From Oidiodendron maius Zn (Eukaryota > Ascomycota > Leotiomycetes > Myxotrichaceae), in NCBI GenBank assembly GCA_000827325.1, contig KN832889.1:62001-126000 (forward strand): a DNA stretch of 64,000 nucleotides. The letters run 5' to 3'. A program made the translations under genes and the position numbers. Of this stretch, positions 25,762 through 56,064 are shown in pieces; position 1 is the first letter of the stretch, and each line of letters begins with the position of its first letter. Below the pieces are notes generated by a model that ran no database searches, was not told the origin of the DNA, and saw only the letters and a program-made list of their open reading frames with translations.

Positions 25762-28700
25762 CTATAGCCCTTCCTTAAGTTCAAAAATAGAGATTCTTCC
25801 CGATAAATGCCCTAGTATAATTGTTTCGTTCTGAATAGCTAGACAAGTGGCTCGATAATCCGGAGGAAGCCAGAGAATGTTTTCACCTCGTCTACTTATC
25901 CATTCCTTTGACACTGATAAGTATATATTATCATTGGGTGAGAAGACTGCTGAGCTAACTGAGCCTAAGTGGCCCTCGAGCGTCTGCACCGCCGCGCCCG
26001 TGGCCGCGTCCCAGAGCCGTACAGTTCCATCTTTAGAGCTTGACAAGATCTGCCGGCCATCTGGTAAGAAGGTCACTGAATTAACTTGGCTCGAGTGGCC
26101 CTTAAGTGTCTGTAGCGTAGCACCTGTGGCCGCGTCCCATAGTCGTACTGTCGTATCCCAAGAACCTGACACGATCTGCCGGCCATCTGGTGAGAAGGCT
26201 ATTGAGCTGACTGAGGCTAAGTGGCCCTCAAGCGCCTGCAGTGTAGCACCTATAGCTGCATCCCAGAGCCGCACTATCTTGTCCGCAGAGCTTGACACGA
26301 TCTGCCGGCCATCTAGCGAGAAGGCTACTGAGCTAACTGCGGTCGAGTGGCCTTTGAGTGTTTGCAGCGGCGCGCCTGTGGCCGCATCCCAGAGCCGCAC
26401 TGTCTTGTCCCAAGAGCTTGATACGATCTGCCGGCCATCCGGCGAGAAGGCTATTGAGCTGACCGGGCCCAAGTGGCCGTTAAGTGTCTGTAGCATTACA
26501 CCCGTGGCTGCATCCCAGAGCTGCACAGTTTGGTCAGAAGAGCCTGACGCGATCTGCCGGCCGTCCGGCGAGACGGCCACTGAGCTGACATCGAGCCAGT
26601 GTTCATGGAGTGTTTGTAGCGCTGTGCCCGTGGCCGCGTCCCAGAGCCGTACGGTTTGATCAGCAGAGCCTGACACGATCTGCCGGCCGTCCGGCGAGAA
26701 GGCCACTGAGCTGACCCAGTCTGCATGGCCCTTGAGCGTCTGCAGCGCTGCGCCTGTAGCTGCGTCCCAGAGCCGTATAGTTCTGTCCTTAGAGCCCGAC
26801 ACAATCTGCCGGCCGTCCGGTGAGAAGGCCACTGAGTTGACCCAGTCCGCATGGCCTCTGAGCGTCTGCAGCGCCACGCCTGTAGCCGCGTCCCAGAGCT
26901 GTACAGTTTCATCACTAGAGCCCGACACAATCTGCTGGCCATCTAGTGAGAAGGCGACTGAGTTGACCCAGTCTGCATGGCCCTTGAGCGTTTGTAGCGT
27001 AGCGCCTGTGACTGCGTCCCAGAGCCGTACTGTCTTGTCCCTAGAGCCCGACACGATTTGCTGGCCGTCGGGCGAGGAGGCGACTGAGTTGACCCAATCC
27101 GAGTGGCCCTCCAGCGTCTGCAGACAGGTGCTCCAGGTTTCTCCTACAGCTAGTATGGTATTTATCCAACTTGGCTCTTCCTCCTTGAAGTGACCTTTAA
27201 TCAGGCTCTTAGCCGGGCTGAAGACGAGTGCAGACACATATGTCTGAAGAGGACTGATCTCTATTACCTGTCTATTATACATGATAAACCGGCGGGCGTC
27301 ATGAATAAGGTCGCATAATGCAGGACTCTCTGACCTCCTCTATGTAACATTAGCAGAATATCCAAATCTCGCTAGTCCCAAAGCTGACCTTGACGAGCAT
27401 CTCTAGCTTTGCCATCCCGACCATACCTTGCGCCATACTTCTACAGAGGCTAAGTGTCTCAAGCCAGTACAGAAATCTCCTCCGTATAAAGACCTCAACT
27501 GAACCTCCACTCCGGAGCCCGCTAGATTGGTCCCCGACACTATCGGGATTCCAGTCACATAGATGGTTGATCCAATAGATGCATGAATAGCGTGAAGCTG
27601 CTAATGGGTCTGGATCTGGGGGTTTAACCTCCTTGGACAAGTATCCTAGAGCCTGTAGGTTGTAAACGTCTCGTCTTAGCGTACTAGACATGATTTGTAG
27701 CGATTTCGAAAGTATCACGTGATGAGCATCCCCTTTTCCTGAGGGAAACAAACCCGGCGCCTCTCCAAGAAGATAATCCTGTGCAGACTGGTGTATGACG
27801 TATACAGTGTCCCCACGAATGGTGAGAAATGAGCCACAAAGGCCAACAATCTTCGCTAGCCATTTTGGGCTTCGGGATAATATCTTAGGCATGTCGACAA
27901 GGGAGCTAAGCTCACTCAACGTAACTGGTCGGTACACAGTTGCAACCAAGGCAAGGATCTGCCTACAAAGACTAGCATTTCTAGAGCTGTCGATTTGTTC
28001 CATCATTCGACTATAAAAAGGATCAAGTCCAGGGGGAAGTTTGTCGAGTTCGTTGAAGATGTCCCATGGCTCAACTTTTTAAAGGAACTGATACATCAAT
28101 GCTACCCAGAGAAATGTATTGTCTGCCTTCGAAACTAGATGGCTTAGGATGGCCCCTCGAATCTCTTCGTCGAACTCCTTTTCCTGTGCTAGCTGATTCA
28201 CTTTGTGCTGGATATAAACATTGACGGAAGCAGAGACGAACTCGTTATTAAGCTCGAGGCAGAGCCGCACCTTGTTTCCGGCCTTATCTAGCTGCTCCTC
28301 GATGGGAGGCCAGTTGCGACTCGAGACGATCCATTTGACTCGTGAAGGCAATGACGACTTCTGGACGATGAAGTCCACGAGTTTCAACTGCCCCTCTTTG
28401 CACTCATCGAGCGCATCGATGATCAGATAGGTGCGTATCAAACTTGAATCCAGCAAAATGTTCGTAAAGATGTCAGATAGAGCTACCCAAGCATTTGCAT
28501 CCTCAAAAAGATTCCTGCCCTCGACGTCATAACGTTTCTGAATATGCGAAATAAGGGATGGCTGCTGCTCGATAAGCAAGGATAGGAGACCTCGTAGAAC
28601 CGCTACGGCGTTATTTATTCGTGAATCAGTTGCTTGACAGAAGAAGTACGACAGCTGATATGTTTCAGCCCCTAATTTTTCTAGCTCATTAATAACTCCA

Positions 28701-29650
28701 CAGAGTAGCATGGTTTTCCCCTTGCCCGGATCACCTTTGATCCAAAGGAGGTGGCTCTGCTGGTCTTCACGCCAATGCTTGAAGTCGGGATGATCTAAGA
28801 TCCAGAGGTACGATTTTGCTAGTAAGCCGCCCTTTCCATCCTCGATGCGCTCCTTATCCTTTCGAGGATCAGTGAGATGCAAGGCCTGTTTGCATTTCTC
28901 CAACTTGTCGATTTCCTCCTGCAGCCGCTTATAGGCTCTCACTACGCCTTCGCCGTATAAAGGGTATAAGGAGACACCGAATATGCCAAGTAATGAGTAA
29001 GCTTTGTCCTCTTCGGACGTTGTCTGACGGTGCTCCATCCACAAGAATCGCTCCTTGACCGAGAATTGCGATAAAGGAGTTCCTTCCAGTGCTAGTAGAG
29101 GAATGCAGGTAATCTCGTGAATCTGCTCTCTAAGAGAACCTCTGTCACCAAGTCGTTTGCATTCTTGAGAGAAGAATTCAACAGATTGTGGCGCGAGAAG
29201 TTCCTGAAGCGTCCAACCCCGAGCGAACCATTTACTCCTTCGAAAGGCTTGTTCCCACGAGCCCTGCGTTTCATCATATCCTCTTTTCCTCTTCCTTGTA
29301 GAAACATCTGATAGATAGACGTAGCATCGCGTAGCATTGCGGTACCAGAGAAACATAGATCTTATAGCCTGTGAAAGCTCGGCGTTCATCTCCCTATCGA
29401 TGCAACAGCTGTCTACCCAGAAGTATCGTAAGCCATCATTAGACGCTTGTTTACTGCAGAACTGGATCTTCTTGTAGCCAAGTTTCTCCTTTCCAGTACC
29501 ATTTATCAGATCTTCATAAGTAGGTTCCAGCTCTTTCCCGTCTTGATCCCTGAGCCATGTATGCGAAAGTATTGCATACGGCGGGACCTTATCGTCACGG
29601 AAGTCTTCGAAGCAGATTGTGCCATCCTCACAGAACTCTAATAGACGCAT
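25762..29650 (-). CDS. HET-NACHT-WD40 (HNWD-type) incompatibility/NLR gene with one in-frame stop
   Basis: An intracellular NLR-like receptor of the family that includes Podospora het-d/het-e/het-r, where recognition of non-self triggers cell death. Start ATG at 29650. An N-terminal HET domain (PPYAILSHTWL, YFWVDSCCID) spans about residues 20-170. A NACHT NTPase follows, with Walker A GDPGKGKT at 306-313 and a Walker B TYLIIDALDEC stretch about 100 residues later. An in-frame TAA at 28079-28081 (codon 524) interrupts the expected sequence, and the same frame then continues. A 49-bp intron at 27388-27340 (GTCAGC..ACATAG) joins it to the repeat domain. The C-terminus has nine near-identical 42-residue WD40 repeats plus one degenerate unit (about 27115-25790). 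With the stop read through the product would be about 1,279 residues. The stop suggests a null allele, a read-through or an assembly error. Confidence 0.9.
25780..27120 (-). repeat. WD40 coding tandem array, about 126-bp unit, roughly ten copies
   Basis: Each unit encodes a blade of the type V-N-S-V-A-F-S-P-D-G-R-Q-I-V-S-G-S, then D-x-T-V-R-L-W-D-A-A-T-G-A and L-Q-T-L-x-G-H. Copies are so alike that long open frames also appear on the antisense strand. Differences cluster at a few positions such as the residues after GH (SDW, ADW, LDV, LGP, STA, LAS, SSQ, LGS), as expected for recognition surfaces under diversifying selection. Confidence 0.9.
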
Positions 29651-42010: not shown

Positions 42011-44524
42011 TCAATTAAATCCCATCCATGACCCCTGAGTCCAATCAATCGTATTCAACCAGTCAACCGTATCCGCATCCAGCGGGACTAGCATCGGATC
42101 GAAAGGGAAAGTGTCTATATTGTTTTCGGTTAAATACTGCTCTGGCTGCGACTCTTGCGGAGGATCCAGAACGTGTTCAACAACCCTCTTCACAACTGTC
42201 TTCAATCTTCTCGCAAGCAAGTAATTCCCATCTGTAGGCCGAATCCACTCCAGGAAACGGATAAAGATGGTAAGTCTCTGGATAGCGTCTGAGCGAGAAA
42301 ATCGTACCCCACCTTGTCCTTTTGCTTGCTTGAGCAGTTCGACACAGACTACTCCCGAACTTGGGATACCATAGCATGTCACCTATGTTTCGTTAGTGAA
42401 GCTCGTGACAGAGTTTGAAGTGCACTTTACGATCCAGTCGAAGCTGTTGTAAAAGGCAGTCAACTGATCTCTTTTGATCCAGTACATATTAGAAAGCTCG
42501 AGCATTTCCATTGCTGTATCGAGAAGCCTTTGATCATTTGCAAATCCGCGAGCAGTAGCCACTCGGTCAATCAGGAATTTGTTTTGAAGGTTGATGAGCA
42601 TGAGATAGGCTTGATCTAGCAATGTTCTTCCGGTGCTTTCCTTCGGTGTTGTTCCATAATCATAATAGTGAATTTGAGGTGGAAGTGAGTCGTAGGCCAG
42701 CTGGCATTGAGAATATAGGTCACTAGTTATAGATTAGTTTTTGAAGTTTGACCAAATGGGGCCATTTACTCTATCTGTTGCGGACTTATATCCAGGTCAA
42801 CAGTGAGTGCTATCTCAATGATCTTCTCAAGATATCTAGAGAGCACTTGAATACCTCGATGTATTGTCACGAAGTAGATTTCCCCATTTCTATTCCATCC
42901 ATTAGAATCTAGCTGACTAACAGCTCTGGCCAGATCTTCCTGGGGTTGAAATAGAGCTTCTTCGGGAAGATCAAGCGGCAGCTGGAGGTGGACAAAATTT
43001 TGGCTCAGGGAAACTGGTATCCCGTTCATAGAGGATTCGTTTTTATCCGTACAATAAATGGCAGAGATGACTCGTCTCTTATATTCTAACGCAGCTGTCA
43101 CTTTGTTTGTGCCACAGTCGAGTCGATGTAAGCCAGCGGCCAATGCACTGACTATAGTATCTGCATGTCGCCGCCGAATCTGAAGACCTGCAATCGAGGT
43201 TAGTTAGTTAAATTAGTTGCTGAATTGGCTGTAATCCATACTTTCGTCGCCTGTACAGTGGCTTTCCAGGATCAAGTTGCATAACATAAGAGCTACTGAT
43301 ATTTCATTGTCTGGAAGGAGATCCACAGTTAGCCAGTCAACACATAGGAAGCGCATGCCACGGTACCCACTTGTCTCCAATATCTTACACTGTCGAGAGT
43401 CAGCATTATAAGACTCAGTATAGAGAAAATTTTCAGAGTCTGATGTAGAGATAACACTCAGGATAAGCACGGAACTTCCATACCATCTTTAAACATATAT
43501 CAGCGCATTCCTTCATCCTCCAAGACGACTGTCTCCTATCCCATCCAGGATTTTCCGGTATTCTAAATCGATGATCACTGTCTGGAAGAGAATGGTACAC
43601 CATGCCAAAAAAGCAGAACAGCATTCCCAGCATCTCAAACCGCAGGCTCAGTCCCGTAAATGTATCCAACCACTCCATTCCATCATCTGGAGCAGGCGGC
43701 AGCGGTTTCTCCTCATTCTTAAAGAGTGTCTCAGCGATCAGAGAAAGCTTTTCAGATGTTCTCGGCACAGACAGCTCTTCTCCAAACGTTGACCACAAGC
43801 TAACTACGGCATGCTTGATCAACACCTCATTCATTGTGATGTTGTATCGTGATTTATATTCGTCCATGAAAGATTCGCATATATCACGGCTTGGTATATT
43901 CCGTAAGGCCATGATGACTTGGTTCATTCGGGCAGTTGGCGTAGACGGACCCTCTCGCCCGAGAAGAGGCTCTCCAAACGGCCATGGCGACTGATATGTC
44001 TGATGCTCTTCATTATTGTCCAAAAGGTCATTCTCTGTAAACACAGAGGAGAAACTTGTGGGGCCATAATATCTAGCTGGCCGTGGAGGGATAGAATCTA
44101 TCTCCCAGTTACGATCATACCAGTTAGGCGTCTCGGGAGCTCTGCGTACGTTCACGGCCTGGGTCTTGTCAACAGTAGGAAGTCTGGAAATTTGAGCAAT
44201 GGGAGACTGTTGTGGGATATGATTTAGGTCCGGACGAAAAGCTGTAGCCATACGGCCTTGAGAAGGTTGACTAGGCTCATTTACTTTGTTGGACGAGTGT
44301 GTTGGAATACGTTCAGGATTTTGTACCGAGCTTTGGGCTGCTCCCGGTCTTGCCCTTGTCATAGGTGCGGGGTGATAAATACACATCGCGGCTTTCTGCT
44401 TCCTAACACATCTTCCACAATGCGGCATTGTGTGATCGCACGCAACCTTCAGTTTTCGACACGGCTCACACGCTTGTTGCTTGCCGTTTCGACGGCTGCC
44501 GCTGACGCTATCGCTAAGAGGCAT
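42011..44524 (-). CDS. Zn2Cys6 fungal transcription factor with fungal-specific TF domain
   Basis: A nuclear regulator of 756 residues in five exons: 44524-43484, 43389-43242, 43187-42770, 42722-42431 and 42382-42011. The introns are 94, 54, 47, 48 bp, with donors GTATGG, GTATGG, GTAAAT and GTAAAG. The zinc cluster near the N-terminus has cysteines at about 19, 22, 29, 36, 39 and 48 (CX2CX6CX6CX2CX8C). A Pro/Ser/Gln-rich linker follows. The middle homology region includes ALAAGLHRLD, and HYYDYG...LLDQAYLMLINLQNKFLI follows. The C-terminus is acidic and Trp-containing (VDWLNTIDWTQG), plausible as an activation segment. It is convergent with the chitinase and may or may not control it. Confidence 0.9.
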
Positions 44525-46559: not shown

Positions 46560-47160
46560 GTTGGATTGTGGTAACGTCTCTAGATAATTAAGGAGAAAAT
46601 GGATGGATAGACATAATTTTTTGAATTGATGATCTCTACTTATGATCATGGCAATGAGCATAATCCCACGTTATGTAGACCATGCGGTGGCCCCCTCTAT
46701 AATGTTTGGCCAATAGGGATTGACTTTCGCTTGCCGAAAATCGCAAGCCAGCCCAAGCTCAACCATCATGTTAGTCATCTTTACGCTAGAAAACCTACCT
46801 TTGAGATCAAATACCCGTTCCTTGCAGGTTGAGACTCATCTATTCGTCAAACTAGTAATACCTCTGGCGGTAGTGGTTTTCTCCCGAGTGGTCAAAATCT
46901 GGGCCTGTGTTAGAACTAGCTCGGAATAGGGAGCCATTAGTCTGCTGCAGGGCCGGGCAAAGTTGTTTCATGATTCGTAACAGCACCACAAACAACACTT
47001 CGATGCTACTCTAACGACCTCTCGCTTTCTTTTAGGTACATTCCTCTTCCGCTGCTTGAAGGACGCCACACCAGCGGCTGACACAAGATATCAATCTGGC
47101 GATCTTGGTTTCCCCAAGAACAGCCTAAGTTGTTCCAACAGGACGTACGACAGTACAGCT
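46560..47160. other. Divergent promoter region of NmrA-like and AflR-type genes
   Basis: About 600 bp between two divergent start codons. No further gene is seen. I did not find a clear TCG(N5)CGA palindrome by eye. Confidence 0.4.
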
Positions 47161-48558
47161 ATGTCTGCATCCCCAACGGCCCTCATGGACCAACTCCCAG
47201 CACGTAAAACCCTGAGGTTGCGATCCTCCTGCGAGGGCTGTGGAGGCGCAAAGGTTAAATGCAATCGTGGTCAGCCTACGTGCAGTCGCTGCGCTACGCT
47301 CAGCCTGACTTGCGTCTATGGGATATCACGCAGATTTGGCAAACCCCCGCGAAAGAGGCTTAGCGCCCGTTTTCACGCACCTGATAGCTTTTTGCACAGG
47401 AAATATACGGCAAAGTCAACTCAGAGCTGCGAGAACCATATGGCTACAGTACTGGAGCGGTCCCAAGGTGTCAGCAATCCTGCTCAGCTTAATTTCTCAG
47501 ATACCGTGGCCGCCAATCTCCCACCGCCTTCTGGTCACAACGCTGAGGCAAGTGTGGAAAATCGCGACGAACTTACAACTATGGGCGTAGGGAAACCTGA
47601 AGGTGCCAACGAAGCCGCGCAGCTTAATTTCTCTGATCCAGGGATCGATGTCTTTCCGGTGCCTTCCAGCATGAACACCACGTCAAACATTTACGAACAG
47701 AACCGGCTTGGTTTGCCGGTCATTCCTCAATTGTCGCTTAATGAATGGTCCCAATTCAACATATGGGATACCGATCTAGAGTTTCCATCGTTCTCAAGAG
47801 GTTCGGGCCTAGAAGGTCAAATCTCAGCTTCCGTGAAAGAGCCTGCCAATAATTTGAGTGCGAGTTTTGACAGTCCCGAGTTTCACAGCTGCCCGAGGGG
47901 TTCATACGAGCTCTTCCGTGACTTGATCTGTCCCAGCCCTTTCCTTCACGCGCCTGAAGCACATTCTGGTACCGTCTCGGCGCGACTAGACGAGGTGCTT
48001 CATTTCAACAGCGAAGCCATCGACCGTCTCAGCCGACTTCTCAAATGTCCATGCGCTAAGTCAGGACATCGTATCATGGTCCATGCATCTATTGTCTCCC
48101 GTATTCTCATCTGGTACCAACAGGCGGCGGGGTGGAACGGTAGCAGTTCCTGGGAGAGTAGACCTTCTTCCCCGACCGTTTCATCACCATCGGATGGCTC
48201 TTCTCCATCCTCGCTGTCTTCATCTATGGAGGTAGCCGATACTGATAGAGCAAGTCTGCCCACATTGGTTCAATCCACCGGGTTTGCCGTCGACCAGGTG
48301 CCTGTTTCGGTGGGAATCTTCAACATTGAGGACCAAAATATGCAGGACGCCTTCAGAGCTCAGTTGGTATTAACCGAGCTTAAAAAGGCAGCCACTGTGA
48401 TCGATCTCTTTATAACCCAGGACTCCAGTAAATCCTCTGCTAGTAGCGCAGCCAGTTTACGCTCTCACTTGGGAGGATGGCTTCAAAGTGAGCATTTCAG
48501 AACCGTAATGATGTTAAGGGCTAGAATTAGGGTGTTAAATCAGAGCCTGGACAATTAA
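47161..48558 (+). CDS. AflR-type Zn2Cys6 pathway regulator
   Basis: 465 residues without introns from the ATG at 47161 (the open frame extends upstream without an ATG). The zinc cluster has cysteines at about 24, 27, 34, 41, 44 and 51 (CX2CX6CX6CX2CX6C, CEGCGGAKVKC), followed by a basic Arg/Lys-Pro stretch (RFGKPPRKR). The C-terminal half has the AflR-domain signature around FNSEAIDRLSRLLKCPCA with SIVSRILIWYQQAA. AflR-family proteins are pathway-specific activators of fungal metabolite clusters, binding TCG(N5)CGA-like sites. An internal duplicate, AQLNFSD, occurs twice about 55 residues apart. It is the strongest sign that a biosynthetic locus lies at 45-59 kb. Confidence 0.9.
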   Translation: MSASPTALMDQLPARKTLRLRSSCEGCGGAKVKCNRGQPTCSRCATLSLTCVYGISRRFGKPPRKRLSARFHAPDSFLHRKYTAKSTQSCENHMATVLERSQGVSNPAQLNFSDTVAANLPPPSGHNAEASVENRDELTTMGVGKPEGANEAAQLNFSDPGIDVFPVPSSMNTTSNIYEQNRLGLPVIPQLSLNEWSQFNIWDTDLEFPSFSRGSGLEGQISASVKEPANNLSASFDSPEFHSCPRGSYELFRDLICPSPFLHAPEAHSGTVSARLDEVLHFNSEAIDRLSRLLKCPCAKSGHRIMVHASIVSRILIWYQQAAGWNGSSSWESRPSSPTVSSPSDGSSPSSLSSSMEVADTDRASLPTLVQSTGFAVDQVPVSVGIFNIEDQNMQDAFRAQLVLTELKKAATVIDLFITQDSSKSSASSAASLRSHLGGWLQSEHFRTVMMLRARIRVLNQSLDN

Positions 48559-49137
48559 GAGATCTAAAGGAAATTCAATCGAGTACTCTTACCCCGACCC
48601 CAGACGATTTGTACTCTTTTCATTGGCCATGAGATGATCTGTCTCCATTGCCGGTCGAAAACTTTGACTATTGTATTGATGAACCAGCCGGCTGCAAGGT
48701 GCTAGTTTGCCTTTCAACGCTGCTCGATCTCACGTCAAGAGCCCGGAGCACAATATGCCCACGTAATGCCAGAGGAAGATTGGTGCTGCCGTAAATATGG
48801 TCACAACCTTATTTGTTATTCTACTATATATAGGTAACAGCCTAGCACGCGACCGTACGCACCTCCCACTCCGCCCCGGCCCAGCCAAGCTTATCCCAGG
48901 CTTTAAATTATACATAGGTGCAGGGCCAAAAAGAAATATGACCAATCCCTTAGTTAATAGAAGCACTGGTTTGTGCAAACATCCTCTAGCACTCGGTATA
49001 TTTACAGTCTTGGAAATGTTCTTGCACAAAATACTTCACCAACTGTATTGATTCTCCGAATATTTACAAACTGCAATCGAGGTGTTAGTTTGTGTAAACT
49101 ACGAGGGAACAGACGATATGGCGTGAGGGATACCAAC
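48559..49137. other. Intergenic between convergent genes
   Basis: About 580 bp. Small overlapping open frames on both strands show no domain and are treated as chance. Confidence 0.4.
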
Positions 49138-51196
49138 TTACCTGCCACAAACTGGGATCCCAAGCAGTTTCAAGCCATTCTCAAGCACCTGTCTCACAGC
49201 CCCATACACCATGCCATCACTGGCCGTAACCTCTGGCGTCTCCTCCTCCGGATCAAAGCACATCGACAACTCGTCCACTAGCCGGAACAGGTAGGTTAGC
49301 ACCCCTCCAGACTCCAGGTTCTTAAACGCTGCTTTAGCAGTGTCGGGATACCGTGCCAGCAGCCGCAGCAGATCACTATAATCCTCCCCATCGACAGCCG
49401 AGTAGTCTGTCACTGCTGGTCCAGCCGCACTTTTTAGCATCTCACATAACCGAGCATGCCAGTACTGCAGATACGGCCCAGTCTCGCCTTCAAACGTCAT
49501 CGCCCGTGTAAGATCGATGGTCCACTGCCCGCTCCGCCTTCCGTGTAAGTCCTGTACCATAAGTGCGCTGGCGCCAATAGCGTCCGCAGCGGCCTGAACG
49601 TCCCCCAGTGGCGCCGCTTTGCCAACATCCACCTTGAGCAGCTCGCTTGCCGCGTTGCTCGAGACGTCAATGAAGTCGCTAAGCAGCTGCGCATGGCCTC
49701 CGCCCTCGAGTTGCAGCTCCTGTACCTTCCCAAAAGGGATATGCTCTAGCTTGGCCGTCAGGTCCGCCCGTCCCATCAGCTCCAGTGCCTTGAACAACCT
49801 CTGGAAATGCATCTCTTGGTCCGATGACACGACGTAGATCATCTTGTCGAAGTTATACTTCTCTGCACGATCCAGCACTGCTGCGATGTCACGCAGCAGA
49901 TACGTTGTCGTGCCTGTGCGGAACCGCAAGGTCCCCTTATCCATGCCTTTCGTACCGCCGTGTTTCCTGAAGTCAATGATCCAGGCGTCATGGCTCTCCT
50001 CATAAACTCCTTTGTCCCTCAATGCAGCCTCGACGCGCTCAATGCTCGCGGCACTGACCTGTGACTCGCCTGCATACTCGTCGAACACGACACCAAGCCG
50101 CGCGTACAGTTTGGTGGATTCCTCGATAGTCACGTCACGGAAGCGCTGCCAGAGTGGCACAGCTTCTTGGTCTCCGTCCTCAAGCTTCTTGAACCAGCTG
50201 TCGCGCTCGGCGTGCAGGCCGTGCGTCTCAATATCTGCCATCCGCGCCTCGACCTCGGCCGAATCACCGCCTTCATCGCGGATGCGCCCCCGCGCGTCCA
50301 GCTCTGCTTTAAACGGCAACTCCATCCGGATATACAGGTCGAGCAGGTGCCGGAGCGGGTCCGCGGCAAAGGCCTCCTCGGAACCAAACCGGGCCCATCC
50401 CGCCGCCAGTAGGCCAATCTGCTTGCCCCAGTCGCCAAGGTAGTTGATGCGTGTGACATCCCAGCCCATACGCTCATGCAGCGCTGCAATGTGCGCTCCG
50501 AGGATAGTGCTGCGGAGGTGTGCGCCACGAAACTCGGTCCCAATGTTCGGCGAGGAGAAATCGATGAGAAGCCTCTTGGGCGTAGAGGCGGGGTCAGAGG
50601 GATCGGACAGCCCCAAGGCTGGGAAGGTGCCATAGGACGCGCCACGATCAGCTATATATGGCAGGATCACGTGGGCAAGACTCTTCAGGGAGAAGAAAAC
50701 GCGGAGGTGGATGCCGTCAGGAACGGGGAGGACAAATAGCGGGGAGGGGGGGAATTTGTGCTAAGGAAGGGAGGCGTTTAGTGGTTTGCTTTCGATACAT
50801 CGTGGGACAGCAAAAGTACAGTGCATGAAGACGTAAAATGAGGTTAGATTGCAGTGTGTGACAGCCAAAGTATCACCACCACAGTGCATAGGGTGTACGC
50901 ACCTGCTGGATGAGCTCAAAGGCCAGTTCCTTTGGGTTCACCGGGCGGTCCTTCAGCTTGAGTTTTGGCAGGATAATATCCAGGTCGCCGTTTGCGATTT
51001 CATTGGATGTTTGGATTGCGTTGAACGCCACCTTTGAGTCGCAGTCGACGAGCCCTACGAGAATAGCGGCCAGCTGCGCGCGGTAGATGTCCACAGGATT
51101 GTGTAGCACATCCGCGCCAGGTACCAGCGGCATCGGCTTCGAGAGAGCCAGCTCCTCTAGCAGTATCTCGAGCTCGTTGAGAGTGTTTGTTGCCAT
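49138..51196 (-). CDS. Arginyl-tRNA synthetase paralog with altered HIGH and KMSKS motifs
   Basis: A class Ia ArgRS-like protein of 638 residues from two exons, 51196-50903 and 50760-49138, with a 142-bp intron (GTGCGT..CCTTAG). A tRNA-binding Add1 N-terminal domain covers about residues 1-110. The catalytic domain keeps IDFSSPNI, YLGDWGKQIGLLA, YAGESQVS, TTTYLLRDIAA, FDKMIYVVSS and GETGPYLQYWHARL. A DALR-like anticodon-binding end finishes LENGLKLLGIP. The ATP-binding HAGH tetrad of normal enzymes is R-G-A-H here (176-179). The M-S-T-R-K-G (KMSKS) site reads E-L-Q-L-E-G (446-451). Normal aminoacylation is therefore doubtful. It is full length with no stops, so it looks maintained rather than decayed. 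It is convergent with the AflR-type regulator. It is probably not the housekeeping copy. Confidence 0.9.
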
Positions 51197-52098
51197 GCTG
51201 TGGGTGGAGAGGCTGTAGAAGCCGGAAAAGTAATCTTACCAGTAGCACCGCTTCTGTGACCGGTCGGGGAGTAGAGAGTCTGCGGCGGGCCAGCTTTGTG
51301 TGCTCGAGGTGGCAGTGCTCTGCTTGATAGTATCACTTGGGCTCTGATGTTGGATAGAGGTGATGACTCTTTTCTTTGGGTAACCGTCGGGCAGCAATTT
51401 GAGAGCCTTAAATCATCACTCAGACCATGGCCGGCAGGCTGTTGTGTGCACAATTGGCTGCGCGCACCCGGGAATGAAGCATGAGCTGGCATCTGTAGAA
51501 CGTCAGTTGATCTCATAGGTTACACCATTGGCGATGATTGGTCAAGAGGAAATGGTGGCCGAATCGCTCGGATTGGCCTCGATTAAGTTTTGTGGCATCG
51601 AGCAACGTCATCCGTCATTTGAATGAGCTATGGTTCTAAAGCCAATGGCTGGCTGGTATTAGCCCGGTAAGAGAATTTGCCCTTAGTTACTATCTTGGGA
51701 TGACTTGTGAACCGTCCAATCTACCTTATGGCCAGGAAATGCATTGCACAATGCGGCGTAATAGAGTCAAAACGCAACAACCACAGGGGCATTTTGGAAG
51801 CGAAAAGCGACCCCGAGGATATCAGGTTCAGTAATAGGCAATTTTCAGCCCCTCAACTTCCCGTTACGCTGTAGACCAGCCAAGATTTCTCAACTGGTAT
51901 TCCTCACTCTTATTTGACGGGCCGTAAGAGTACTTCCTGTCCGCCTAGACTTAGGCGACGCAAGCGTCAAGCAGACACGCTTGAGGCTGCACTGCGGTTG
52001 GCAAGCCATGTTGCCGGTCTACATAGGAGAAATAATGTAGAAGTATACCCTCGTGTCAACTTTCAATTGAGTAGTTGGACCTGCGCTTAATGCGACCA
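51197..52098. other. Intergenic upstream of the ArgRS-like gene
   Basis: About 900 bp. Presumably contains the ArgRS-like promoter. Overlapping short open frames on both strands at 51157-51516 are considered chance. Confidence 0.4.
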
Positions 52099-54462
52099 TC
52101 AAGGGGGGAAAGAGCCTCCTCGCTCAGGATCGGTAGTGTTGCTTCTCCACCCCCGTCCGACGAATTGATCGAAAGTGCTACATCGGCTCTCTAGGGACTG
52201 GATGGATTCCTCAACCTGATTGGTTTGCTTCGTTGGCGTTGGTGGCGTCTCAACCAATGCAGACACCTGCCAGCGCTGCGGCCAGCGAAGGAAGGACATT
52301 GTAATAACACACACAAAGATACTCATGCCAAAGATTGTGGCGATGAATGTCCATGTTGTGACTGGATATGGGATGATCCCCTGAACGTTGAAAATGCCTG
52401 AAACGAGACTTATTGGGAGAAACACCTGGAGATCGCAGAGATATTAGAAAACTGCAAGCTGGCAGAGGGAGCAGGATAATTACAAATGTACCCAGCTGCA
52501 CCATAATCTTGTTGAATTTGGAGTCACTCTGTTGGGAGGTAGTCTTTTCGTTGTCGTCGACTTGCAGGTCCAGTTGGAACTACTGATGTTATCTCTCGCA
52601 CGGTCGGAGACGCGCTGAAGGAATCTATACGCACAGCTCGGGCAAACTGGCTGCAGGTTGTATGCAAATTCTGCAAATCTTTGTGCAACTCGACCAGGGT
52701 ATTGAATGAAATAAAGACCAAGGGGATATAGGCCTTTGCCTTGTCGTTGATGTCCTCGAAGTAATAGATTCCACTCTTGATGAAGTGACCCACACAGTCG
52801 ACCGTCTTGTCAATAAGTCGCGCAAGCTTAGTTAGTAATGGCCTGGTTTGTGCTATCCAGCCCTCTGGCGACAGCCTTTCTTGAATTCGAGGTGTTTCCT
52901 TGAACTGAGAACGGTTCATCTTATAATTTTTGCGACTCTCTATCTATGGAGATTGTTAGTCGACTTTCCAAAGAAAGATAGGGCAGGGATAAAATCAATG
53001 CACTTGCTGCAATCTTTAAATGCATTAGACAGTAATCCAACGCCCTCTCTAATCAAACCTGGCTGTGTAAACATACATAGTCAAGGATATCGTGGGTTAT
53101 CCAGTCGACAAGATTTTCCCACTCCTTCACGATCTGCGCAAGACGACTCTCTAACACTTTCAGGAAATACTCTCTCGGCGTCCAGGTGGGCAGGTTGGTA
53201 GTGTAATCGCCAGCAGGAATGAAGTCCGGCAGGAGAGGGGCGTCGGGTTCATATATATCTTCGAAGTACTTGCAGTCCCGCTTCATTTTCGGATTCTCTT
53301 CGAAGTATGTATCTACCAGGCCAACAGCATCCCATACATAATGGTCAAGTCCGCTAACAAGACAAGTAGTCTGGGCTTCGTAGAGGTATGGCCTCTCTTG
53401 CGATTTTTTATTATCATTGCCATCGTGTATAAAGCCGGCTAGGAATGAGATGTCGATAAATTTTCTCAGCGGTTTTCCTTCACACTGGCGAGTATCAACT
53501 AGCGGTGAAGATGACTTCCTCCAAGCCATGTAAGGGAAATGAAACTCTAAGGAAAACGTGAGTTGGATCTTGCACTGCCAAACAGAGTCAGGAGATGACA
53601 TAATGTATTGTGGGTTGCTGTCGATAAACCGAGAGAAGAATGGCAAAGGAATCATTGGGCATTGGCTCACCTTAATTGCCGGCTTGAAAGAGACGTAACC
53701 GCGGATGGATTCTTCCACGGCTTCCGCTCGCGTGCCCGACGCAGTTATGGTCAGGGCAAGCAAAGCCCATGATGTTGGATCGGGGATGTAGCTAAAGATA
53801 GTCAAATATTTAGTCTGTCATACGTAGCTGAACTGGGAAAGTTATTTTACATTAATCGTTTCCCCCCATCCTGTTCTGGGATATGCCATGCCAACTGTGA
53901 TCCGCGGATGGCCGATTGCTCTTGTGATTTTAAATTTGGAGGTTCTTGAGTGAATCTCTGCCATGAGAATGACTGTCAGCTACCCGACTCGTTGAGACGA
54001 TTCGAAGTAAACGGCTAGGGATTCGCCGATGACAGGCCAACTTACTCTCCTACTCATTTCCTGGTATAGTCGTTGCGAAGTAAGCGCACTTTCTCCCCGT
54101 CTGCTATCTCCTGCATCTACATCAGTGCTAGGCCCAACTCCTCGATGAAGAATTGCAACTTTCATCGTCCCAACTTCTCCCTCGCCATCTTTCAATGCTT
54201 TCATCGTCGCACCACCCCAAAAAGATCGCAACCTCTGCGTCTCGCGGGAACATCGGTCGGCCTGCTCGGACTTTCTCAGGAAGATGAAATCAAAAAGATT
54301 GTCCTCTGTGATTGAGCCCCATTGCTCTTCGATCTGCTCTAAGTTCGACTTATCTTCCCTCTCGTACTTCTGTTCATCGCGAATGAGGAATCTGGGACTC
54401 CATATGCTGGAAGAGCCAAGTAAAAGATCGGGCCGCCCTTTTCGTTGAGCAAGTTCCGTCAT
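52099..54462 (-). CDS. CorA-like membrane protein, fungal subtype
   Basis: A multi-exon gene related to the CorA metal-ion transporter superfamily. Likely exons are 54462-54046, 53972-53851, 53791-53671, 53574-53077, 52943 to about 52618, about 52583-52480, and about 52430-52099. The third and fourth may be one exon, since the 96-bp intervening stretch is in frame but has GTGAGC..CAG borders and a CTGAC branch. The N-terminal two thirds are soluble (GSQLAWHIPEQDG, YIPDPTSWALL, FHFPYMAWR). Two C-terminal membrane helices follow, VFLPISLVSGIFNVQG and TTWTFIATIFGMSIFVCVITM, the first occupying the place of the CorA GMN loop, which is absent (FNVQG). Such proteins are common in filamentous fungi and transport is unproven. 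The donor near 52618 is uncertain. Confidence 0.7.
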
Positions 54463-54599
54463 CTCAGTCCCCAAAAGTAGATTAGCCACTTTGACCCGGC
54501 GCGGCGTTGTGACCTGTCACTTTGCATAAAATGCGGCCCGTCGCGAGCAGAGATTCCCGCTACCTGGGGACAGGGCAGCGATTAGCCGCGTCTTGCCGT

Positions 54600-56064
54600 A
54601 CTAGTCCAAGCAAAGATCTAGGATAAAGTTCAAATAGCGTCTCGTCAGTGCAGTCCTGGATCCTACAAAATGCGGAAAGCGTATGAGAGAGGATGTCCTC
54701 GCACCGCTTGGAAGGTGTAAAAAGAGCAGTTGTCCTGTGTACTTGTATGATAAGTAGTCAAGTGGGGTGCTTTCACCGGGATGGGATAGCAACTGTGGTA
54801 TATTAAGTGCGCCAAATACTTTTGTTCGATAGGTAATGCGGCTACATCTGGATCGGCAAATCCTGGCCCCGGTGGTCCAGCAGTCACGACCCACAGGTAA
54901 GGCTCGAGGTGCATAATGAATTCGAATTAAGTGGAAGGGGTATGCCTGACCCCAAGCTGTGGACTTGTACAAGCTTCTGATGGATTGTTGCCTGACACCT
55001 CTGATGCGGAAGGGACCCATCTTACATATATACAGGTGGCATACCATCCAGCGTCGACGAATAGAAGCTATAAGAATGCTTAACACCCCATGCTCCGCCT
55101 CCAACTACGTGTCCGTTCACTCTCTGCTCGCCCTAAATTTGTGCCAATAACATGTAACATTCGGTCAAACTGTATTCAGAAACTCCACGATGCAAAATAT
55201 CCTTCCGCTCGAGTAGCTCAACTCCGCCGCCCCCGCATTCAGTCCCAAAGCATTTCAAAAAAGAGAGGGTTGAAATGCCTGCATCAAAACCGCCTGCATG
55301 ACGAGCTATATTTAGCATATCGTAAAAGACATGATTTTGGTTGCTGCCCGTTTCTGCAGGTCGGGTAGGATGCCAAATAATACGCGCGGTGGAGGAGGGC
55401 GAAGTTAATGTCGGGCCGGTGAGGTAAATCGGCCAAGCCGAAAAATCTGGGGTTGGACTGAAGTTCTCCATTCTGGAAGAATAGGGTTTGGCATTTGGGC
55501 ATGAATTGGGCACACTTCGTGTTGGTCTGCCTTGAGGATGGTTGTTCATATGTTCGGGCCAGAATCGAAGGCTACCGGCACCACCTCGCAAAACGCGACG
55601 GCGGAGTGTGTGTGTAAGATCATATTCTCAGCAACGTCAGCTTTGGTCGCAAGATGCGGACAAGCTGTTTGATCCGAACCAAGAAAAACAAACGCCAAAC
55701 AAAAAAAAAAAACTAACCATGTCCAGCTGGGTGACTGTGATGTTGTTGGCCACCGAGGCGCAAGGCATTTGGGACTGCCTGGGAAGATCGCATCCCATGC
55801 GCGTAATCCTCCGAGGCTTCAATCGGCCAGTTATTTGTCTCATCGCCCGTATATGGATCCTCTGAGCTGGGCAGTACCCGCATCGCGTCTGCTGACAATT
55901 TGGACAAGCCTCCAAAGTAATCGCAATGTTCGTATACATGCAATTACACTATGATCATCATCAGTATCTGTAACATGTATCACCCCATGCACAGACGTAC
56001 ACATTGCCAGATCCACACAAGGGCCGGTTTCTTGCCCTTCGAGGGACCGCGCTATTGTAAACAA
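54600..56064 (-). CDS. Possible multi-exon hypothetical gene
   Basis: Several minus-strand segments have coding character but lie in different frames. About 56004-55950 and 55909-55713 are joinable by a 40-bp intron to give DDDHSLSKLSADAMRVLPSS. About 55500-55330 includes NPRFFGLADLPHRPDINFALL. About 54914-54663 includes YLWVVTAGPPGPGFADPD. They could be exons of one gene or chance frames. No family is recognised, and exon limits cannot be fixed by eye. A run of 12 A at about 55700-55712 (T on the coding strand) would fall in an intron. Confidence 0.28.

Follow-up and report, generated by a model that had tools for sequence, protein, structure and literature searches.

The window analysed here, a stretch of 64,000 nucleotides from Oidiodendron maius Zn (contig KN832889.1, positions 62,001 to 126,000; contig C20 of the 45.9 Mb assembly), carries on its minus strand an intact gene for a paralog of arginyl-tRNA synthetase (ArgRS), hereafter pseudo-ArgRS, whose product, judged from its residues, is very probably unable to activate arginine. 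The gene belongs to a clade of degenerate ArgRS proteins in which ATP-site residues are lost and the arginine pocket is retained, and a gene for a membrane protein with a predicted CorA-like fold lies directly upstream of it. With a probability of roughly 0.45, we favour the reading that the window gene encodes a pseudo-synthetase that still has arginine or an arginyl group as its ligand and controls this CorA-like partner.

An intact ArgRS paralog with degenerate catalytic motifs

A preliminary description of the sequence had proposed a full-length, stop-free ArgRS paralog of 638 residues at 51196-49138, in which HAGH is changed to RGAH and MSTRKG to ELQLEG. Both observations hold. A two-exon model yields this product, residues 13-634 of which align to yeast ArgRS (1bs2; E 9e-120, phmmer) with F-R-G-A-H opposite F-H-A-G-H and V-Q-E-L-Q-L-E-G opposite V-Q-G-M-S-T-R-K-G, and the motif codons read likewise. 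The gene and its sites are as follows, with the corresponding yeast residues in brackets.

51196-49138, minus strand: pseudo-ArgRS gene, two exons, spliced product of 638 amino acids, 0 internal stops
50903..51196, minus strand: exon 1, residues 1-98, part of the N-terminal additional domain; alignment with yeast ArgRS from residue 13
50761..50902, minus strand: intron, GT..AG (GTGCGT...TTAG)
49138..50760, minus strand: exon 2, catalytic and anticodon-binding domains, including the stop codon
50545..50562, minus strand: arginine-pocket stretch with D165 (E148), S168 (S151) and N170 (N153)
50518..50529, minus strand: degenerate HIGH site, R-G-A-H for H-A-G-H, residues 176-179
49888..49902, minus strand: arginine-pocket stretch with Y385 (Y347), R388 (R350) and D389 (D351), all kept
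49816..49818, minus strand: arginine-pocket Q413 (Q375), kept
49699..49719, minus strand: degenerate KMSKS site, E-L-Q-L-E-G-G for G-M-S-T-R-K-G, residues 446-452

The established activation mechanism of class I synthetases relies on HxGH, KMSKS and K156-type features, and in ArgRS a lysine upstream of HxGH can compensate for the KMSKS-equivalent loop. The window protein has neither the HxGH glycine nor a KMSKS loop, and it has T at the position of yeast K156, so that the upstream lysine, a third catalytic feature, is lost as well. With HxGH glycine, KMSKS loop and K156 equivalent all missing, activation of arginine appears hardly possible. The arginine pocket is present in the same protein, with S, N, Y, R, D and Q kept and E148 replaced by D.

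The ArgRS fold with its catalytic and anticodon-binding domains is present as well. The predicted structure of exon 2 (pLDDT 89.6) has the yeast ArgRS structures 1bs2 and 1f7u as its nearest solved neighbours in a Foldseek search, the best 20 matches of which were all ArgRS structures, and exon 2 scores 275.4 bits against the NCBIfam model TIGR00456 (cut-off 261.65 bits).

A sequencing error at the motifs is unlikely, since three public relatives share them in degenerate form: P0001, a separate protein of 510 amino acids that is identical to the window protein at 499 of 510 positions and, judged from its sources, probably metagenomic, has RGAH and ELQLESGG; in P0002 and P0003, the orthologs that come next, the sites are HGAH and ELQLVSGG.

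Relatives without HxGH form one clade

A tree of 245 rows was built from two protein searches (the best 120 matches listed in each), four proteins of this genome and yeast ArgRS; row counts reflect the matches listed and are not frequencies. The rows comprise 121 type-1 canonical and 47 type-2 canonical proteins, yeast ArgRS and 76 proteins without HxGH, namely 73 of the best 120 public matches listed and three proteins of this genome. All 76 form a single clade with support 1.0, the window protein inside it, so that chance is not an issue for its motif loss. Likewise, all 29 degenerate members stayed together (SH-aLRT 100) in a mixture-model tree of 64 selected rows from which the motif columns had been taken out; these 29 are the 76 rows thinned at 80% identity, and the canonical rows of this tree were picked by hand. 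The orthologs with the same changes for which the preliminary description had suggested looking, by alignment and tree, exist, and the "precise loss" at both sites that it had described is real, though common to other family members instead of being specific to this gene.

The clade consists mostly of full-length proteins, and its named members span four classes of Pezizomycotina:

Sordariomycetes: Plectosphaerella, Fusarium and Colletotrichum
Dothideomycetes: Zopfia
Eurotiomycetes: Talaromyces
Leotiomycetes: Bisporella

The residues that replace HxGH vary by subclade, with mostly QVSH in Fusarium, EGRH in Colletotrichum, and TAAH and GAH elsewhere. For some of these fungi the matches listed also include a canonical type-1 ArgRS, for instance in Colletotrichum graminicola (P0026 and P0158), Bisporella sp. 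PMI_857 (P0080 and P0155) and Xylariales sp. AK1849 (P0018 and P0190). In our reading, the degenerate clade split off from a canonical ArgRS lineage; a nesting inside type-2 ArgRS was considered and is not secure, as the topology that keeps all type-2 proteins together was not rejected (p 0.31). The type-2 class itself (HAGH with MSSRLG or MSSRMG) occurs in many Pezizomycotina alongside the yeast-like class; 46 of its 47 rows carry Y at the position of H378. The extra C-terminal part of the Colletotrichum proteins P0058 and P0103 gave no Pfam match at E 0.1.

Other ArgRS genes of the genome and coding constraint

Matches to the ArgRS catalytic family PF00750 were found at five places in the genome, the window gene being one. 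The others are:

C1:2157989: canonical ArgRS with HAGH and GMSTRKG
contig C15: degenerate paralog with TEAH and KASGQSSGG
contig C20, at 348 kb: second gene of this contig (C20b), with HTKH and RSPHTSDHD; end of its first exon uncertain
C9:689000-697900: decayed fragment with KYLH, stops and frame changes

The canonical gene, a second ArgRS that the preliminary description had proposed to look for, means that the window gene is not the sole ArgRS of the fungus. Its product is 89% identical to the ArgRS of the leotiomycete Amorphotheca resinae and 68-85% identical to the other 119 matches listed. A stretch in frame upstream of it could serve mitochondrial import; dual targeting of synthetases from a single gene is described for fungi (PMC7049704). 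None of the five places holds a type-2 ArgRS (HAGH with MSSRLG).

The intron of the window gene lies 0-2 residues from the first intron of both the canonical gene and the C15 paralog. The three full-length degenerate copies sit in different subclades and not in one clade (AU test, p 0.0008), by which their origin through duplication within the genome is rejected.

Among the copies of this genome, Nei-Gojobori estimates of dN/dS were hampered by saturation of synonymous sites in the six full-length pairs (pS 0.78-0.86), and the only computable pair, the window gene and the C9 fragment, gave an unreliable value of 0.26 at dS 2.06. Between the window gene and C15, the first, second and third codon positions differ by 0.41, 0.32 and 0.71, respectively, which suggests coding constraint since these two split.

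ATP-site residues are lost and arginine-pocket residues are kept

Retention was counted over the 76 degenerate rows, in yeast ArgRS numbering, and the residue pattern was compared across seven groups. At the ATP site, K156 is kept in 6 rows, H159 in 5, M408 in 8, R411 in 4 and K412 in none. G161 is likewise kept in none, partly by definition, as the rows were sorted on HxGH; no row loses only H159 while keeping G161. Of the anticodon contacts (D484, Y488, Y491, R495, R501 and Y565), D484 is retained in 14 rows, Y488 in 10, Y491 in 20, R501 in 7 and Y565 in 0. In the arginine pocket, S151, Y347 and R350 are present in all 76 rows, N153 and D351 in 75 and Q375 in 70, and position 148 is E in 71 and D in 5. 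Changes in the D-loop trio N106/F109/Q111 were also considered and dropped, since N106 and Q111 are variable among canonical proteins too, and 27/47 type-2 rows have H in place of F109.

For the pocket counts other than Q375, the contact numbers of a human model (PMC3824642) were mapped onto yeast numbering. In that study, a docking analysis of a human ArgRS model with reference to the yeast structure, Glu and Asp form salt bridges with the guanidinium group, Ser and Asn hold the amino and carboxyl groups, and Tyr and Arg lie near the carboxyl group.

A wider comparison used the 143 sites at which no less than 98% of 169 canonical rows agree. Of these sites, 49 hold in at least 95%, and 38 in at most 50%, of the 29 diverged degenerate rows. 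ATP-site residues are enriched among the lost sites (6/8, P 0.005), as are anticodon residues (4/6, P 0.043), and arginine-pocket residues among the kept ones (5/6, P 0.018; E148 lies outside the set). The case for selective retention is tempered by the modest size of these P values, which carry no correction, and by the choice of residue sets after the residue table had been seen. The window protein keeps 106 of the 143 sites, within the range of the degenerate clade (86-110), and the poorest canonical row keeps 137.

Taken together, the residue pattern strongly supports a loss of catalysis in the degenerate clade. In line with the preliminary description, which had suggested lost catalysis on a retained fold and a new role outside translation, a canonical ArgRS is encoded elsewhere in the genome, the clade extends over four classes and the window protein retains 106/143 constant sites. 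Because the pocket for the guanidinium, amino and carboxyl groups is conserved, the window protein has most likely remained able to bind L-arginine or an arginyl group, for which we consider the support moderate.

A gene of a family with a predicted CorA fold lies upstream of the pseudo-synthetase

The gene directly upstream of the pseudo-ArgRS gene, in the same orientation, was modelled by hand with six exons and GT..AG introns.

52099..54462, minus strand: gene of a CorA-fold family with two transmembrane (TM) segments
54462-54046, 53814-53671, 53574-53077, 52943-52635, 52579-52484 and 52425-52099, minus strand: its exons

The model has 0 internal stops and encodes 596 amino acids, with two hydrophobic segments near the C-terminus. 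The pseudo-ArgRS gene on C15 has homologous exons on its upstream side, in the same order and on the same strand relative to it. Moreover, the CorA-like gene of the window is homologous to the N-terminus of P0008 (Purpureocillium lavendulum), which, like P0101 (Fusarium redolens), is a public gene model that combines a CorA-like protein with a pseudo-ArgRS. A true fusion was considered for these two proteins and rejected in favour of merged models, because sequence is missing at the junction: the end of one protein in both and, in P0008, also the start of the other.

Searching with the CorA-like part of P0101 yielded 69 proteins, 67 of them named (66 Fusarium and one [Neocosmospora]). The locus tags of the CorA-like and pseudo-ArgRS lists were compared by eye, the prefixes NECHADRAFT and IWW34DRAFT being excluded as non-positional (for IWW34DRAFT, the listed contigs differ). 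Five genomes shared a positional prefix, and in four of these the tags are consecutive, given here as CorA-like and then pseudo-ArgRS: IL306_006979/006980 and 006981, FSARC_8199/8200 and 8198, ACHAPU_008790 and 008791, and FDECE_18346 and 18345. The FSARC genome holds a further, non-adjacent CorA-like copy (FSARC_2870). Among the 16 pseudo-ArgRS rows from Fusarium with tags judged positional, 11 had no listed neighbour of the same prefix, which clustering at 90% may explain. Four more pairs lie on contigs of equal size, in F. beomiforme (239823), F. oxysporum (102463), F. oxysporum f. sp. raphani (6689312) and F. vanettenii (4937060), although equal size says little for the last two, whose contigs are of megabase length.

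The fold was assigned on P0241, a Fusarium relative, and not on the window protein. Its predicted structure (33 sequences, pLDDT 72.7) combines an alpha/beta domain with a long stalk helix and a hairpin at the C-terminus. All 33 Foldseek matches with E of 0.001 or less are structures of CorA, CmaX and ZntB (probability 1.00, TM-score by target 0.45-0.61), at 8-13% identity. No Pfam model matched the CorA-like family above its cut-off. The CorA superfamily carries the signature GMN at the end of TM1; at the loop after TM1 we found FNVQG in the CorA-like gene of the window and FSMQG in the C15 neighbour, and not GMN. Six proteins of the CorA-fold family without a precomputed Pfam domain (P0273, P0284, P0293, P0294, P0301 and P0302) are named arginyl-trna synthetase in public Fusarium records, a name that was perhaps passed on from merged gene models.

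Proposed role and alternative explanations

In the reading that we favour, the pseudo-synthetase would act as a ligand-binding regulator that senses arginine, or arginyl-tRNA in those subclades that keep tRNA contacts, and the bound state would be passed to its genomic partner, the CorA-superfamily membrane protein with two TM segments. A read-out through the CorA-fold protein is suggested because the gene pairing recurs; from this genomic context we infer the read-out, a physical contact of the two proteins and the direction of regulation. A more specific version, in which the pair would be an arginine sensor of filamentous fungi made of a pseudoenzyme without ATP binding, and mostly without anticodon binding, that gates a CorA-type channel when arginine or an arginyl ligand is present, is considerably less probable. 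We know of no other system that couples an amino-acid state to ion flux in this way.

Several observations weigh against the favoured reading. The loss of ATP-site residues is not complete (H162 is kept in 76/76 and S409 in 26/76), nor is that of anticodon residues (R495 is kept in 67/76), and in the subclade of the window protein Y488 is retained in 8/10 rows and Y491 in 10/10, so that tRNA binding is possible there. The pocket is not uniform either: a Zopfia-like group of six rows has Q375H throughout, the C20b paralog also has D351E, and the window protein itself carries D in place of E148; moreover, its residues may have been retained for folding alone. As to the partner, only a seemingly decayed remnant (a partial match with stops) accompanies C20b, no match to the CorA-fold family was found beside the C9 fragment, and in F. 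torreyae the tags are far apart (NW762_010913 and 000038). The family occurs at no fewer than eight places in the genome, two of which adjoin a pseudo-ArgRS and six do not, and adjacency was scored for a minority of the 76 rows. The pairing is therefore a property of some members of the CorA-fold family. Two family genes on the same contig lie at C20:129389-129862, about 16 kb from the window pseudo-ArgRS gene, and at C20:340006-340659, about 7 kb from C20b.

The strongest rival, which we hold to be possible though doubtful, is a two-gene conflict module, in which the CorA-like protein would form a pore that arrests growth or kills, with the pseudo-ArgRS serving it as partner, sensor or antidote, in the manner of a toxin-antitoxin, self/non-self or antiviral abortive system. 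It would account for diverged copies in one genome that do not form one clade, for the decayed C9 fragment and the seemingly decayed neighbour of C20b, and for the tandem CorA-like genes beside the pseudo-ArgRS in two Fusarium genomes (IL306_006979-006981 and FSARC_8198-8200); a HET-NACHT-WD40 gene about 20 kb off in the window is a candidate link. However, the replacement motifs are shared within Fusarium and within Colletotrichum, and the 76 rows collapse to 29 at 80% identity, unlike a fast-turning conflict gene. Moreover, an antidote has no need of the retained arginine pocket.

A regulator that binds uncharged tRNA-Arg or Arg-tRNA, and thereby reads arginine supply through tRNA charging, is unlikely, and somewhat more so than the conflict module. 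The HisRS-like domain of Gcn2 is an analogue, the anticodon-binding domain is part of the fold, and both R495 and the two tyrosines of the window subclade would suit such a role, but the other anticodon contacts are mostly lost across the family. Of the functions put forward in the preliminary description, arginine handling or regulation fits best, since the pocket is kept, and plain tRNA binding fits worse for the family, though the window subclade keeps two anticodon tyrosines.

We regard as improbable a different, ATP-free enzyme that uses the pocket for aminoacyl transfer or arginine modification, including the cyclodipeptide-synthase idea. H162, R350 and E294 are retained in 76/76 rows, and class I synthetase folds have been reused in this way before (cyclodipeptide synthases, cited in PMC9437257). 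On the other hand, the HxGH replacements differ by subclade, which fits a lost site better than a rebuilt one, and in the yeast-aligned columns V458 to L is the only change that is at least 90% conserved in the 29 rows yet rare in canonical ones, with no new catalytic residue seen.

Neutral decay of a spare copy, which does occur as the C9 fragment shows, is very improbable here, given intact frames in three copies of this genome and in public relatives of several classes, the codon-position differences between the window gene and C15, and the 49/143 canonical-invariant sites kept across the 29 rows. Least probable of all is an ArgRS that still works, if slowly, or a drug-resistant duplicate: exon 2 passes the TIGR00456 cut-off and public relatives are named arginine--tRNA ligase, but the window protein lacks the HxGH glycine, KMSKS and K156 and a canonical ArgRS exists elsewhere in the genome, which bears out the earlier judgement that a spare housekeeping copy or a resistant duplicate is the less likely explanation.

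Genes and sequences around the pair

Repeats of at least 25 bases were not found in 48500-56000 around the window gene. The other features that we recorded are:

47056-48558, plus strand: Zn2Cys6 regulator with an AflR domain, adjoining the pseudo-ArgRS gene
43433-44524: regulator gene that, by eye, resembles a Zn2Cys6 regulator gene near the C9 fragment
25762-29650, minus strand: the HET-NACHT-WD40 gene, NLR-like, with about nine WD40 stretches alike by eye; it reads as three open frames, divided by introns or by disruption

In the open frames that were looked at we recognised no biosynthetic core gene, with no dedicated search run.

Significance and comparison with known systems

Public records name relatives of the window protein arginine--tRNA ligase, some of them "cytoplasmic", which masks a family that is very probably unable to act as one. 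If the pocket works, the family would provide a novel scaffold for arginine binding in fungi; its pairing with a gene of the CorA-fold family is a testable lead to what the pseudo-ArgRS controls. In addition, the degenerate clade allows the usefulness of an amino-acid pocket without catalysis to be tested across seven groups. Searches of open-licence papers listed no description of a degenerate fungal ArgRS family, and Table 1 of a 2022 review of duplicated synthetases has no row for ArgRS (PMC9437257).

With canonical fungal ArgRS (yeast Rrs1, 1bs2/1f7u; the type-2 HAGH/MSSRLG proteins of Pezizomycotina) the degenerate clade shares domain layout, fold and arginine-pocket residues. It differs from them in lacking the HxGH glycine, K156, KMSKS and most anticodon residues, and in being paired with a gene of the CorA-fold family. 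The partner family resembles the CorA/ZntB/CmaX/Mrs2 superfamily in the predicted alpha/beta domain, stalk helix and C-terminal helical hairpin of P0241, but stands apart by its low identity, the lack of a Pfam match above cut-off and FNVQG or FSMQG in place of GMN. The arginine-containing cyclodipeptide synthases (RCDPS) are fungal and related to arginine, as is the pseudo-ArgRS, whose predicted structure is however closest to ArgRS structures.

SLIMP has lost aminoacylation, and HisZ is a class II protein. SLIMP and other paralogs resembling aminoacyl-tRNA synthetases are, like the window protein, duplicated synthetases with a new role, according to Table 1 of PMC9437257. According to the same review, HisZ is a HisRS paralog without adenylation activity that regulates ATP-phosphoribosyltransferase and acts in its inhibition by histidine (PMC9437257). 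The likeness is one of working: a synthetase paralog without activation chemistry serves as an amino-acid-responsive regulatory subunit. HisZ is bacterial, however, and its partner is a metabolic enzyme, whereas the protein described here is a fungal class I paralog, its putative partner is a CorA-fold membrane protein and ligand binding is deduced from the pocket. Pseudo-synthetases as a kind are thus already known; the coupling of one to a channel, if true, would go beyond them.

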